From positions 1,178,001 to 1,242,000 of the forward strand of contig NZ_CP084115.1 of the NCBI RefSeq assembly GCF_020217465.1: 64,000 nucleotides of DNA, read 5' to 3'. Numbering within the stretch: position 1 is the first letter of the stretch; the number at the start of each line of letters is the position of its first letter. This document shows positions 604-30,646 of the stretch, piece after piece. The notes below the pieces were generated by a model. The model was not told the DNA's origin, did no database searches, and saw only the letters and a program-made list of their open reading frames with translations. This DNA is from Cobetia amphilecti (lineage in GTDB: Bacteria; Pseudomonadota; Gammaproteobacteria; Pseudomonadales; Halomonadaceae). Position numbers and translations under genes: made by a program.

Positions 604-1542
604 ATGACTTACCTACCTTTCTCTGCGGATTGGCTGACTGGCGGAGTGCGTGGCCTGCCATGCCTGTCTGCGTGGACCTGGCCGCGGCGCCCGTGGCGCC
701 TGAGCCCTGTTCGTCTGGGCGCTGTCCGTCTGGGCTCTGTTCGTCCGGGCTCTGTCCGTCTGGTCAGTGCCGCCTTGCTGCTGGTGATGGGGCTGGGCTC
801 GATGGCGCAGGCGGCGCGGCTGGATGATGAGCTACTGGCCCGTGACAAGACCCATCAGATGCCGGACCTGCGGCCCTATCCCGCGGGCAACCAGCGCAAG
901 GTCGCATTCTTCGAGCTGATGATTCCGCTGGTGGTGGCCGAGAACCAGCGCATCGCCGAGCAGCGCGACTGGTTGCTGGCGATGCGCAAGCGCGCCGGTG
1001 ACGGAGGGCGTGACTACAGCGAGCGCGAGCAGGAGCGCCTCAATGGCCTGTGTGACCAGGCCAATCTGCCCTGCGATGTGACTCGCGAGGACATCGGCGT
1101 CAGCTGGACGCGCCTGCTGCTGCGCATCGATACCCTGCCGCTGGACATGGTGCTGGTGCAGGCCATCGAGGAGTCGGGCTGGGGGACGTCGGGCCATGCC
1201 CGTGAGGGCAACAATCTGTTCGGCATGCGCTGCTTCTCGCGTGGCTGCGGTATCGGGCCGCCGGGGCGTGAATATCGGCGCTTCGAGAGCCTGGAGGCCG
1301 GCATCGCCGCCTATTTCGACAACCTCAATTCCCAGCGCAGCTATGCCGAGCTACGTGAGCTGCGCGGGCGTCTGCGCAACGCGGGCCAGCCGGTGCGCGC
1401 CGAAGACCTCATCCCGACGCTGAGTGCCTACTCGACGCGGGGCAACGCCTACTTCACCACGCTCTATGATCTGTTGCGCTGGAATCGTGGTCTGATGCGT
1501 ACCGTGCGTGAGCGCCTCGCGGCCAATGGCGCCCTGTCCTAG
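604..1542 (+). CDS. Bax-like glucosaminidase (GH73 family), exported
   Basis: Predicted 312-residue peptidoglycan N-acetylglucosaminidase of the Bax/FlgJ (GH73) type. The C-terminal half holds the family core: AIEESGWGTSGHAREGNNLF (substrate-binding region with candidate catalytic Glu), the GMRCF segment and a conserved region ending SAYSTRGNAYFTTLYDLL. A hydrophobic stretch SAALLLVMGLG followed by MAQA looks like a signal peptide. The ATG at 604 gives about 50 residues before it, partly coded by a 15-bp tandem repeat; a GTG start nearer the hydrophobic core is possible, so the true N-terminus is uncertain. It is flanked by unrelated genes. Function is inferred from family motifs. Confidence 0.8.
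   Translation: MTYLPFSADWLTGGVRGLPCLSAWTWPRRPWRLSPVRLGAVRLGSVRPGSVRLVSAALLLVMGLGSMAQAARLDDELLARDKTHQMPDLRPYPAGNQRKVAFFELMIPLVVAENQRIAEQRDWLLAMRKRAGDGGRDYSEREQERLNGLCDQANLPCDVTREDIGVSWTRLLLRIDTLPLDMVLVQAIEESGWGTSGHAREGNNLFGMRCFSRGCGIGPPGREYRRFESLEAGIAAYFDNLNSQRSYAELRELRGRLRNAGQPVRAEDLIPTLSAYSTRGNAYFTTLYDLLRWNRGLMRTVRERLAANGALS
707..766 (+). repeat. Four tandem 15-bp units in the 5' end of the glucosaminidase gene
   Basis: Units at 707-721, 722-736, 737-751 and 752-766 follow CTGTYCGTCYGGGCN with one to three differences. In frame they code a degenerate pentapeptide series around GSVRL just before the signal-peptide core. Confidence 0.85.
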
Positions 1543-26107: not shown

Positions 26108-26644
26108 ATGAAGATCAATGTCGAATTCGACCTCACGCCGCAGGAATTCCGCCAGGCGATGGGCCTGCCGGACGTGGAAGCCTTCCAGCAGGAATTGATG
26201 GAGCGCTTTCGTCGCCAGATGGAGGCCGGTGTTGAAGGCTACGACCCCATGAGTCTGCTCAAGCCATTGATGGCACCGGGCGCGGGCACGCCGTTTGCCA
26301 AGTTCATGCCGCCGGGCATGGCCGAGGGGATGATGGGCGGCGCGTCTGGCAATGCCGGGCAGGGCGCAGCGGGCGGCATGTCGGGCGACATGGGCGAGAG
26401 CATGGCCCAGGGCATGGCCGCCTTCAATCAGTACCAGAAGATGATGCTGGATACCCTGCAGCAGTTCGGTCAGGGCGGCGCGGAAGGCAAGGAGGCTGAC
26501 AAGCCGGAGTCTGCCACGCGCAGGAGTTCGGGGCCCAGTAGTGATCACGGCGCGGATCAGAAGGCAGAGCAAAGCGCCAGCCGGGCGGATGATGCGAAAC
26601 CGGCCTCCGCGGCCAGTGCGCGCTCACGCGCCAAGCGCAGTTGA
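26108..26644 (+). CDS. DUF6489 family protein of the PHA locus
   Basis: 178-residue soluble protein. The N-terminus MKINVEFDLTPQEFRQAMGL followed by PDVEAFQQELMERF matches the DUF6489 pattern; a Gly/Met-rich middle and amphipathic segment (GMAAFNQYQKMMLDTLQQFG, like a phasin helix) precede a disordered Lys/Ser/Ala tail ending SARSRAKRS. AAGGA precedes ATG 26108. It is 220 bp upstream of the phasin gene. Function is unknown; context suggests a granule-associated or regulatory protein (inference). Confidence 0.75.
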   Translation: MKINVEFDLTPQEFRQAMGLPDVEAFQQELMERFRRQMEAGVEGYDPMSLLKPLMAPGAGTPFAKFMPPGMAEGMMGGASGNAGQGAAGGMSGDMGESMAQGMAAFNQYQKMMLDTLQQFGQGGAEGKEADKPESATRRSSGPSSDHGADQKAEQSASRADDAKPASAASARSRAKRS

Positions 26645-27360: not shown

Positions 27361-27769
27361 GCCGTTTTCAGGCATTGCCCCTGCCGTGCTGGAAGGCGCA
27401 TGCTGGAGATGAGCACGCTGGCGCACAGGCTGTTTTGCTCTCGTATTCGCCGCGCGCGAATCCGACGGAAAGCAGACCTGCAGGTGGCAGACCATTCCAA
27501 CTGACAGCGCATTTTAGCTGACAGCGCACTTTGCTTGCCTTGGCATGCTCGCCTGCAGCACCCTGAAATCAGCCGTGAAACGGTCTTCAAAACAGTCTGA
27601 AAAGCAGTGCCCGTCGCCAGTGAAGGCGCCCGTCTCACGAGAGACGGCATGGCACTGCTCAGTGGTCAGGAAGGATTCGATTCGATGAAATCGTGCCGCC
27701 GGCAGATGTTCGGCAGCCAAGCTTCGATAGCCAATGACGTGATGGTCAATGACAAGGAGGAAGGGCGAT
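27361..27769. other. phaP-phaC gap with a 17-bp duplication
   Basis: No gene is convincing here. Two tandem 17-bp copies of ARCTGACAGCGCAYTTT are at 27499-27515 and 27516-27532. A promoter for phaC must lie here because phaP ends in a terminator; I could not place it. Confidence 0.6.
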
Positions 27770-30646
27770 ATGGACTCAGCCCAGCAGCAGGCGTTCTCGC
27801 AGACATTCTCTCAGGCCTTTACCAGTCTGTTCCCCGACGGTGCTGAAGGCACGGAGTGGGCCAGCGTGATGCAGCAGGCCAGCGCCCAGTATCAAGCCTT
27901 GATGAGTGACATGCTGGAGCGCCTATGGCCCAGCGCCGCCGCTTCCACCATCTATGACGAGATGGGTCGTTGCTTCCAGGCGGGTGCCGAGGCCCTGGCA
28001 CGCGACCCGCAACTGTTGATGTCGACCCAGACGCGCCTCTTCCAGGACCAGATGGCCCTGTTGCAGGGCACGTTGCGCGAGCTGAATGGCGAGAGCGTCG
28101 AGCCGGTGATCACGCCCGCGCGCTCTGATCGCCGCTTCCGCGATGAGGCCTGGCAGCGCGAGCCCTATTACCACTTCCTCGTGCAGCAATACCTGCTGTT
28201 CTCGCGCGCCGTGGACGACATGCTGGCCGGCATTCAAGGCCTGCCGGAGAGCCAGAAGCGCAATCTCGAGTTCTACGCGCGCCAGTACGTCAGCGCCTTC
28301 TCGCCCTCCAACTTCGCCTCCACCAACCCGGAAGTGCAGCGCGTGACCCGCGAGACCGGCGGCCAGAACCTGCTCGACGGCCTGAAGCGTCTGCGCGATG
28401 ACCTGGCCAACTCCGCCGAAGGCATCAATGTCGCGATGACCGACACTGAAGCCTTCCGTCTCGGCGACAACATCGCCGTCACGCCGGGTGACGTGGTCTT
28501 CGAGAACGAGCTGATCCAGCTGATCCAGTATCGTCCGGCCACCGAGAAGGCCTTCAGCACGCCGTTGCTGGTCGTGCCGCCGTGGATCAACAAGTACTAC
28601 ATTCTCGATCTGCGTCAGGACAATTCGATGATGCGCTGGCTGGTGGAGCAGGGGCACACCGTGTTCCTGATCTCCTGGCGCAATCCGGGGCCCGAGCAGA
28701 GTGATCTCACCTGGGCCGATTACATGCAGATGGGGCCGCTGGCCGCGATGGATGCCATCGAGCAGGCCACCGGCGAGAAGCAGGTCAACATCCTGTCCTA
28801 CTGCATCGGCGGTACGCTGACGGCCAGCACCATGGCCTATCTGGCGGCCGAGAAGCAGTCCGACCGCGTGCGCTCGGTCAGCTACATGGCAACGCTGCAG
28901 GATTTCTCCGATCCCGGTGAGATCGGGGTCTTCCTCAACGAGCCGGTGCTGCAGGGCCTCGAGAAGCAGATGGCGCAGGACGGCTATCTGGATGGCCGCG
29001 TGATGGCGTTCTCCTTCAATCTGCTGCGCGAGAATGACCTGTTCTGGTCGTTCTACGTCTCCAACTATCTCAAGGGCGAAGCGCCGACCGCGTTCGACCT
29101 GCTGTACTGGAACACCGACGGCACCAACCTGCCGGCCGGTACCCATGCCTGGTATCTGCGTCATATGTATCTGGAGAACCGCCTGGTGCAGCCCGGTGGC
29201 ATCGAGCTGGACGGCGTGCCGATCGATCTCTCCCAGATCGAGACACCGAGCTACTGGGTCTCCGCGCGCGAGGACCACATCGCCAAGTGGCAGACCACCT
29301 ACAACGGCACCCAGCTGCCCAAGGCCTCCATCAAGCGCTTCGTGCTCGGTGGCTCTGGTCATATCGCGGGTATTGTCAATCCGCCGCACAAGAACAAGTA
29401 CGGCTACGCCACCAACGACAGCCTGCCGGCAACGCCGGATGAGTGGCTCGAGGGCACCGAGCAGCACGAAGGTTCCTGGTGGAATGATTGGCAGGCGTGG
29501 ATGACAGGCAATGGCTTCGTGGAGCCGGAACCGGAGGTCTCTGCGCGCACACCGGGTGAGGGCAAGCTCGACGTGATCGAAGCGGCGCCGGGGCGTTATG
29601 CGCGCCAGACCATTCCGGAAGTGCTGGGGCAGAGCGTGCCGGAAGAGATCACCAGCGTGGCGGATGCGCAGCTCAAGGCCGTGCGTGATGTGCAGCAGAC
29701 GGTCGAGAAGAGCGTGAATGAAGCGCTCAAGCAGGTGACGCTGCCGCTGGAAGAGGTCATGACCGCGATGACCGAAGCCGTCACCGGCAAGGCCGCCAAT
29801 GATGCCGGCGACACGGCGGGCAACAGCTCATCCAGTGCCTCCAGGGCGCAAGGTGCGAGCACCAGACCTGCCGCTTCCAAGGCCGCATCAGCCGCTGGGG
29901 CGCCAGCCGCTGAGTCGGCAGCGCCGGCAAGCAAGCCCGCCGCGCGCAAGCGTGCTGCACCCAAAAGCACAGCCTCCAGGAGCACAGCTGCCAAGAGCGC
30001 AACGACCACCAGCAGCACGGCCAGCGACAGCACTACCAAACAGAGCACTGCGAGCACGGCTGCCAGCAGCACCGGTAGCTCAGCGACCAAGACCACCACG
30101 GCGAGAAAGACCTCCACGCCACGCAAGACGGCAGCCAGCAAGACGACCACTGCCAACAAGTCAACGGCGGCCAAGACGACTGCAAGCAAGACGACTGCAA
30201 GCAAGGCGACTGCGAGCACGTCAGCCTCTGACAGCAAGCCGTCTGCATCAGGCACCTCGAGCAGCAGCACTTCTTCCACGGCTTCGGGCTCCAGCGCTAC
30301 GAAGCCCGCGACGACGCGCAAGAGCACTGCCAGCAAGAGCACGGCGAGCAAGAGCACCGCCAGCTCGACGGGAAGCGCGAGCACTGCCAAGACGGGTAGC
30401 AACACCGGGGCTTCCAGTCAGGAGGCTACCCGCTCAGGCACTTCAAGCTCTGGTGCTTCCACTACCACCGCCAAGAGTGACACCGGCAGCGAAGCGCCCA
30501 AGCCGCGCCGTGGCCGCCCCTCCAATGCCAGCAAGGCCGCCGCCGCCAAGGCCGCTGAAGAGGAGGCGAAGAAGGACGACGCCAAGCCTGCGGCCAGCAA
30601 GGCAGATGGCGCGTCTGGCAATGCCAAGGATAGCGACAAGAGTTGA
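27770..30646 (+). CDS. phaC: Class I poly(3-hydroxyalkanoate) synthase with long basic tail
   Basis: Polymerises 3-hydroxyacyl-CoA into PHA. The catalytic domain spans about residues 1-620: WQREPYYHFLVQQYLL (N-terminal PhaC domain), PPWINKYYILDL, the lipase-like box SYCIGGT with C345, D502 in REDHIAKW and H531 in GGSGHIAGIVNPP. The box has Ser where Cupriavidus has Gly. At 958 residues it is far longer than the usual 560-600: from about 675 on it is almost pure Ala/Ser/Thr/Lys with 15-bp-encoded KTTAS/KSTAS repeats, then PKPRRGRPSNASKAAAAKA, an AT-hook-like core. ATG 27770 is preceded by AAGGAGGAAGG; the ATG at 27749 has no ribosome site. No phaA/phaB is adjacent. Confidence 0.93.
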   Translation: MDSAQQQAFSQTFSQAFTSLFPDGAEGTEWASVMQQASAQYQALMSDMLERLWPSAAASTIYDEMGRCFQAGAEALARDPQLLMSTQTRLFQDQMALLQGTLRELNGESVEPVITPARSDRRFRDEAWQREPYYHFLVQQYLLFSRAVDDMLAGIQGLPESQKRNLEFYARQYVSAFSPSNFASTNPEVQRVTRETGGQNLLDGLKRLRDDLANSAEGINVAMTDTEAFRLGDNIAVTPGDVVFENELIQLIQYRPATEKAFSTPLLVVPPWINKYYILDLRQDNSMMRWLVEQGHTVFLISWRNPGPEQSDLTWADYMQMGPLAAMDAIEQATGEKQVNILSYCIGGTLTASTMAYLAAEKQSDRVRSVSYMATLQDFSDPGEIGVFLNEPVLQGLEKQMAQDGYLDGRVMAFSFNLLRENDLFWSFYVSNYLKGEAPTAFDLLYWNTDGTNLPAGTHAWYLRHMYLENRLVQPGGIELDGVPIDLSQIETPSYWVSAREDHIAKWQTTYNGTQLPKASIKRFVLGGSGHIAGIVNPPHKNKYGYATNDSLPATPDEWLEGTEQHEGSWWNDWQAWMTGNGFVEPEPEVSARTPGEGKLDVIEAAPGRYARQTIPEVLGQSVPEEITSVADAQLKAVRDVQQTVEKSVNEALKQVTLPLEEVMTAMTEAVTGKAANDAGDTAGNSSSSASRAQGASTRPAASKAASAAGAPAAESAAPASKPAARKRAAPKSTASRSTAAKSATTTSSTASDSTTKQSTASTAASSTGSSATKTTTARKTSTPRKTAASKTTTANKSTAAKTTASKTTASKATASTSASDSKPSASGTSSSSTSSTASGSSATKPATTRKSTASKSTASKSTASSTGSASTAKTGSNTGASSQEATRSGTSSSGASTTTAKSDTGSEAPKPRRGRPSNASKAAAAKAAEEEAKKDDAKPAASKADGASGNAKDSDKS
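30173..30364 (+). repeat. 15-bp arrays in the phaC tail
   Basis: Two groups of three 15-bp units: 30173, 30188, 30203 (AAGACGACTGCAAGC type, coding KTTAS) and 30320, 30335, 30350 (AAGAGCACNGCNAGC type, coding KSTAS). They lie inside the low-complexity tail. Confidence 0.85.

Follow-up and report, generated by a model that had tools for sequence, protein, structure and literature searches.

Can a polyhydroxyalkanoate (PHA) synthase itself hold the granules that it makes to the nucleoid? The question is raised by phaC of Cobetia amphilecti (27770..30646, plus strand), which lies in a stretch of 64,000 nucleotides (positions 1,178,001 to 1,242,000 of contig NZ_CP084115.1; in the following, the window) of a 4.16 Mb genome assembled as a single contig. 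The gene encodes PhaC2 of Cobetia, a class I PHA synthase with an extended C-terminus. Translation yields 958 residues and no internal stop, the length given by an earlier note that had been made from the letters of this DNA alone, and about 345 of these residues follow the class I catalytic part. In our best reading, held with moderate confidence, this extension would be a tether to the nucleoid that forms part of the very enzyme making the granules.

Neither the tail nor the idea is new. In 2021 Christensen et al. (PMC8686332) described, from 19 genomes of Cobetia, a PhaC2 that is specific to the genus and has a C-terminal extension, whose isoelectric point (pI) is 10.06-10.40, as compared to 4.63-4.85 for the N-terminal 613 residues, and which is mostly coil as predicted by PSIPRED. 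They reported AAKP motifs, which they linked to PhaF, in four of the PhaC2 sequences and hits of the tail to HC2 in CDD, which they themselves called non-specific. They proposed that the tail anchors the granules to the nucleoid or DNA in place of PhaM, of which strain MC34 has no homologue (PMC8686332). Added here are a map of the tail in three parts, the conservation of a block containing an AT-hook, a survey of Cobetia for separate tethers and a bacterial synthase with a helix-hairpin-helix (HhH) tail. In the part of the literature covered, searches for PHA synthase or bacterial polyhydroxyalkanoate with AT-hook, and for PHA synthase with a DNA-binding C-terminal extension and nucleoid, returned no paper; for Cobetia PhaC2 with nucleoid PMC8686332 was the only one found.

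Three parts of the tail

What the sequences show is the anatomy of the tail, its conservation in six Cobetia species and its limits to the genus. Near the tip lies a conserved block of residues 905-941 (30482..30592, plus strand; EAPKPRRGRPSNASKAAA...AEEEAKKDDAKP), delimited by pairwise identity and by the ratio of nonsynonymous to synonymous differences per site (pN/pS). An AT-hook is defined by a GRP core with flanking basic residues and proline. The sequence PKPRRGRPS at residues 910-918 agrees with this definition, and the AT-hook-like core PRRGRP (residues 912-917; 30503..30520, plus strand) is found in five of the six species, in which EAPKPRRGRPS is conserved and the core is identical despite synonymous codon changes. 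The earlier note had let the tail end on this motif; the core is present, but 41 residues follow it. When residues 672-958 were shuffled, PRRGRP appeared in 0 of 200,000 and the looser [RK]GRP in 917 of 200,000 sequences. For residues 920-933 of the block a short helix is predicted with low confidence.

Mean pairwise identity among the five species is 0.84 in window 901-920 and 0.86 in window 921-940 (0.61 and 0.77 when the sixth species, L007, is included), as compared to 0.33-0.66 (0.27-0.57 with L007) in the 20-residue windows of residues 681-900. In these five species conservation within the disordered tail is highest in the AT-hook block. From the window to the relatives L003, L004 and L005 the pN/pS of the block is 0.03, 0.05 and 0.15, respectively (linker: 0.31, 0.29 and 0.42), and between L003 and L004 it is 0.13, all of these block ratios being rough because the block has only 35-36 codons and the low values rest on one to four nonsynonymous changes.

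The block is preceded by a stretch rich in serine, threonine, alanine and lysine (residues 675-904; 29792..30481, plus strand), defined by prediction and comparison, which varies in order and length and keeps its composition. AlphaFold2 predicts it to be disordered, with a predicted local distance difference test (pLDDT) score below 35. The low-complexity part as a whole, residues 675-958, is composed of 42% S+T, 25% A and 15% K+R; it has 284 residues, in good agreement with the about 285 of the earlier note. In the six species the part from residue 675 to the end (217-333 residues) contains only zero to three hydrophobic residues and has a net charge of +26 to +37. Of 197 differences within residues 675-904 between the window and L003, L004, L005 and L006 (four comparisons that share ancestry), three are changes to hydrophobic residues, as compared to 22-26% expected from random nonsynonymous changes. 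The order of the residues drifts while the net charge and the scarcity of hydrophobic residues are kept.

The DNA of this linker is made in part of tandem units of 15-18 bp. Could the tail then have arisen by slippage in GC-rich 15-bp repeats, as a neutral addition that the enzyme tolerates at its end? The spread of frame lengths among the six species (895-1015 residues) and a linker pN/pS of up to 0.71 (0.29-0.71 in eight pairs) would be in line with such an origin. We nevertheless consider it very improbable, because hydrophobic content and net charge are constrained, because pN/pS is low in the helical segment described below and, among close species, in the AT-hook block, and because the tail is kept in all six species.

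A second explanation dispenses with DNA. As a long, polar and weakly charged chain on each synthase, the tail could be a solubility and spacing brush that stops granules from fusing and holds the enzyme in solution, or it could form condensates with the acidic catalytic domains. The near absence of hydrophobic residues, the high content of serine and threonine and the predicted disorder are what one would expect of a brush, and the acidic N-terminal 613 residues (PMC8686332) offer the tail an electrostatic partner besides DNA. A brush alone, however, leaves the conserved PRRGRP block near the tip and the positive charge in all six species unexplained. Since no other stretch of the disordered tail is as well conserved in five species as the AT-hook block, DNA is favoured over a mere brush, which we regard as unlikely.

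The third part, a conserved helical segment of about residues 617-672 that separates the catalytic domain from the low-complexity tail, had not been mentioned in the earlier note. As a feature it spans residues 613-672 (29606..29785, plus strand) and, within the search made, it occurs as a whole only in Cobetia PhaC2; its start (EVLG) is common to many other Halomonadaceae. When 201 genomes of the family were searched with a profile of the segment, the six Cobetia all scored E 1.2e-34 or lower; matches in another eight genomes (E no higher than 0.1, the best being 6.8e-4 over 22 residues) were attributed to chance. Across the six species 31 of the 58 columns 617-674 are invariant, and the pN/pS of residues 613-671 is 0.10-0.38 in eight pairs. 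AlphaFold2 predicts a single helix of 48 residues (625-672) with low confidence (pLDDT of about 60, falling to 34). At 100 degrees per residue the segment is amphipathic: in four sequences tested the observed moment was reached by only 0-7 of 20,000 shuffles, and that of the first part by 0-5 of 20,000. At 102.9 degrees, where 87-947 of 20,000 shuffles reach the moment, the amphipathicity is weaker.

This helix might itself be the key part of the extension, an in-cis activator or oligomerisation element (compare PhaM acting on the PhaC of Cupriavidus necator) that the basic stretch assists. Its invariant columns, its amphipathicity and its predicted length speak for such a role, as does a match to the phasin family PF05597 in three of the six members (best E 0.012), the C-terminal half of PF05597 being weakly resembled. 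With 15.1-15.2 bits (E 0.022-0.024) the segment stays below the family cut-off of 28.8, however, and unrelated helical families (FAM25 in four of the six members, FliE, Dak2) match at similar E-values. In addition, when the segment was compared by hhalign with nine PF05597-type phasins, 15 of 400 shuffles of the columns scored as high. A phasin ancestry of the helix was dropped on account of these unrelated matches and shuffles. A search of the PDB revealed nothing convincing (best E 1.8) and one of PHROGs zero matches. Taking into account also the low confidence of the model, and that a helix as the key part leaves the AT-hook block unexplained, we judge this explanation to be improbable.

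Distribution of the tail

The earlier note had asked whether the tail is conserved in the PhaC proteins of the Halomonadaceae. This holds for Cobetia, not for the family. Of the 201 family genomes sampled, 166 were matched by the catalytic part; L001, a partial copy of the gene in the window, and L034, taken as the same genome as L006, were excluded from the species count. All six Cobetia species examined have the long C-terminal tail, which extends 275-391 residues past the anchor RY.RQTIP and has a pI of 10.0-10.3. Other frames of the family with a detected anchor stop 5-36 residues past it; in frames without an RY.RQTIP-like anchor the tail length was measured by BLAST instead. The tail is a Cobetia feature, and most of the other frames measured end soon past the catalytic domain.

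At least 130 extra C-terminal residues were found in five of 127 closed non-Cobetia frames (L093, L108, L150, L151 and L152), a count that is not a frequency because some genomes occur twice, synthases below the class I cut-off are included and long frames are enriched. Two of these, the PhaC of Vreelandella zhuhanensis (L093) and of V. rituensis (L108), have 140 and 141 extra residues with repeats of the EKPSTEKQG type. The L093 tail is nearly neutral in charge, and the two Vreelandella tails were rejected as DNA-binding-like because they are weakly charged. Of the long frames among the matches listed from the phylum, the 20 that were fetched (661-908 residues) owe their excess length to the N-terminal side (19 have no extra C-terminal residues, one has 26). 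Ten frames of 661-761 residues were fetched from the search of the class, three of them with 133-144 extra C-terminal residues.

A proposed tether in cis

The catalytic part of a class I PhaC sits on the growing granule. We infer DNA binding, tethering and partition in the following way. With the catalytic part on the granule, the amphipathic helix would lie on the granule surface or pair with other granule proteins, and the disordered linker, some 230 residues long, would extend with its diffuse positive charge into the cytoplasm. There the charge of the linker and the near-terminal AT-hook could together grip DNA irrespective of its sequence, AT-rich minor grooves being the probable sites. 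The synthase would in this way do in cis the work of the separate proteins PhaM, PhaF and PhaH, the granules being spread along the nucleoid and shared between the daughter cells. If the tail binds DNA, then birth, position and inheritance of the granule rest on one protein; whether granules start on the nucleoid could then be tested directly with small deletions in a single gene, and there would be a one-gene means to position bioplastic granules in other bacteria. The map of three parts turns the proposal of 2021 into precise mutants.

The six Cobetia genomes were checked for the separate tethers. PhaM (NF043076) was found in none of them; the model does detect PhaM in one of 185 genomes of the class (G307). 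A PF05597 phasin was also found in none of the six; in the 201 family genomes PF05597 has no match over the cut-off and 11 below it (E up to 0.001), and it is over the cut-off in eight of the 185 class genomes. Each Cobetia genome has two PF09361 phasins (12 in total) with a pI of 5.0-5.5 and, beyond residue 100, a net charge of 0 to +3, the termini being measured from likely starts, and no basic-tailed PF09361 phasin was found in the six genomes. An HhH match was found in neither of the two PF09361 phasins of the window genome. It is possible that Cobetia has a tether of another family. Among the phasins seen in passing, that of G068 (L199) has a run of KYEAS repeats, not found in the other five phasins of its type, and L133 (G343:C11) is a PF05597-type phasin with a basic Lys/Ala-rich arm at the N-terminus, the reverse of the order in PhaF.

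The proposal of the earlier note that the synthase carries its own putative DNA-binding arm is plausible and partly supported: it fits a tail present in all six species, the positive charge of this tail, the low pN/pS of the block among close species and the negative searches for PhaM, PF05597 and basic-tailed PF09361. The following findings weigh against it. The net charge of the PhaC2 tail is only 0.09 per residue (total +26), as compared to 0.27-0.33 in three PF05597-type phasin arms that were picked by eye. The AT-hook is missing in one of the six species (L007), and a lone AT-hook binds DNA weakly. L007 has five AAKP motifs, but AAKP is no clean replacement, for it coexists with PRRGRP in L006 (two motifs) and L004 (one). 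The pN/pS of the block is 0.33 between L004 and L005 and 0.31 to L006, not below the linker values of close pairs, and about 1 in comparisons with L007. Two of the six Cobetia genomes have a second synthase, the frames of which have only 605 and 622 residues. Since PF05597 is over the cut-off in none of the 201 family genomes and most of the synthases measured are tail-less, missing tethers alone do not demand a tail.

Profile searches did not uphold the term histone-like, which the earlier note had used for the tail: at E up to 10 residues 691-958 match no family of Pfam or NCBIfam, one of the histone type included, and the published CDD hits to HC2 were not reproduced with Pfam and NCBIfam. 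NF043076 (PhaM) matched neither residues 608-691 nor 691-958 at E up to 10, nor the whole protein at E up to 1, and an HhH family was found neither in the whole PhaC2 at E up to 1 nor in residues 608-958, searched in two pieces, at E up to 10. Our confidence in a tether in cis is only moderate because of the low charge density, the lack of a match to a histone profile, the species without AT-hook and the roughness of the ratios.

Catalytic part, start and neighbours of phaC

The catalytic region (residues 77-612; 27998..29605, plus strand) matches TIGR01838 with 734.4 bits, the curated cut-off being 622.65, which identifies the protein as a class I PHA synthase. Cys345, Asp502 and His531, which the earlier note had correctly assigned to a complete class I domain, stand in the context of the PhaC box and are invariant across an alignment of 30 sequences. 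The solved PHA synthases align to residues 54-618 at most. In the window genome phaC is the sole match to PhaC_N and to the catalytic part. Among the best 80 loci Cobetia crustatorum JO1 is the closest named relative, with 90% identity in the catalytic part; the other 79, from Halomonas and its kin (Billgrantia, Vreelandella, Modicisalibacter and others), are at most 70% identical.

Two indications make the start at 27770 likely: a Shine-Dalgarno-like AAGGAGG, read off the sequence 9 nucleotides upstream of the ATG (27754..27760, plus strand), and the published PhaC2 forward primer of strain SF2003, which contains the identical ATGGACTCAGCCCAGCA (PMC7175313). An ATG in frame at 27749 is a possible alternative. 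A class I synthase makes PHA without a second subunit; in print, the phaC2 of SF2003 yielded PHA when expressed in C. necator PHB-4 (Thomas et al. 2020; PMC7175313). As this gene is 2865 bp long, the tail was included in the cloned enzyme, and the tailed full-length PhaC2 is, according to that report, active.

Upstream of phaC lie a gene for a small protein with a DUF6489 match (26108..26644, plus strand) and a phasin gene (PF09361/TIGR02809; 26865..27317, plus strand) without a basic tail, the starts of both being inferred. Both gene products, ending at 26644 and 27317, share similar termini, SRAK(R/Q)(S/N). Scans for promoters and terminators gave no informative signal.

Tailed synthases outside Cobetia

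L150 (G345:C19:23900-27000), from a genome of the same taxonomic class as Cobetia, encodes a class I PHA synthase that is followed by a C-terminal Lys/Ala/Pro linker and then HHH_5 (30.2 bits, cut-off 27). By this profile match L150 is a bacterial PhaC bearing an HhH domain, contrary to PMC12028471, the authors of which found an HhH in the longer, disordered C-terminus of PhaC from the archaeon Haloferax mediterranei, likened it to PhaH and called HhH absent from bacterial PhaC. An H3TH-type hit has been reported for a putative PhaC2 of Halomonas sp. O-1 (PMC8686332). In L151 and L152 (G504 and G274; two genera of one family) the C-terminus is extended by an AAKP/KKA-rich tail (139 and 133 extra residues, respectively) in which the charges almost cancel out (net only +3 and +7).

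The synthases with HhH, L150 and the PhaC of H. mediterranei, count in favour of a tether in cis because they indicate that other synthases, too, carry DNA-binding-type modules, of the PhaH type. Tentatively, and with clearly less confidence than the tether itself, we suggest that synthases may have gained DNA-binding arms repeatedly, a reading that the Haloferax synthase makes slightly more probable. The arms would be of the two kinds also found in the separate tethers, of an AT-hook/AAKP kind (Cobetia; L151 and L152, AAKP-like and nearly charge-balanced) and of an HhH kind (L150; the archaeal Haloferax), and that the Cobetia arm, with an amphipathic granule helix, a basic linker and an AT-hook tip, would be a mimic of PhaF grafted on the enzyme. 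If so, the molecule that starts the granule would also attach it to the chromosome from the outset.

Comparison with known systems

The protein treated here is the PhaC2 of PMC8686332, of the same genus, a class I PhaC with the SYCIG box. The two studies differ in that the terms AT-hook, hook and amphipathic have zero occurrences in the main text of that paper, and no selection analysis was seen there; the legend to its PSIPRED prediction has strand and helix up to residue 674, with the helix not singled out as a part of the tail.

PhaM, PhaF and PhaH, as reviewed in PMC13052382, have an N-terminal part on the granule and a C-terminal part that binds DNA non-specifically and is histone-like in PhaM and PhaF and HhH in PhaH. 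By analogy, the parts of Cobetia PhaC2 are arranged in this order too, the synthase itself forming the end on the granule. PhaF of Pseudomonas putida is alike in that a granule-binding part is followed by a DNA-binding one; it is a separate protein, not fused to the synthase, and the PF05597-type arms have three times the charge density of the PhaC2 tail. PhaM of C. necator forms complexes with PhaC and binds DNA by its histone-like domain (PMC13052382), but is also a separate protein. PhaH of Caulobacter crescentus, a granule protein with the HhH part at its C-terminus, is a separate phasin, whereas Cobetia PhaC2 has no HhH match. In the PhaC of H. mediterranei the disordered C-terminus of a synthase has a DNA-binding-type domain, as would be the case in Cobetia; the enzyme differs in being of the archaeal PhaE-PhaC type and in having HhH rather than an AT-hook (PMC12028471).

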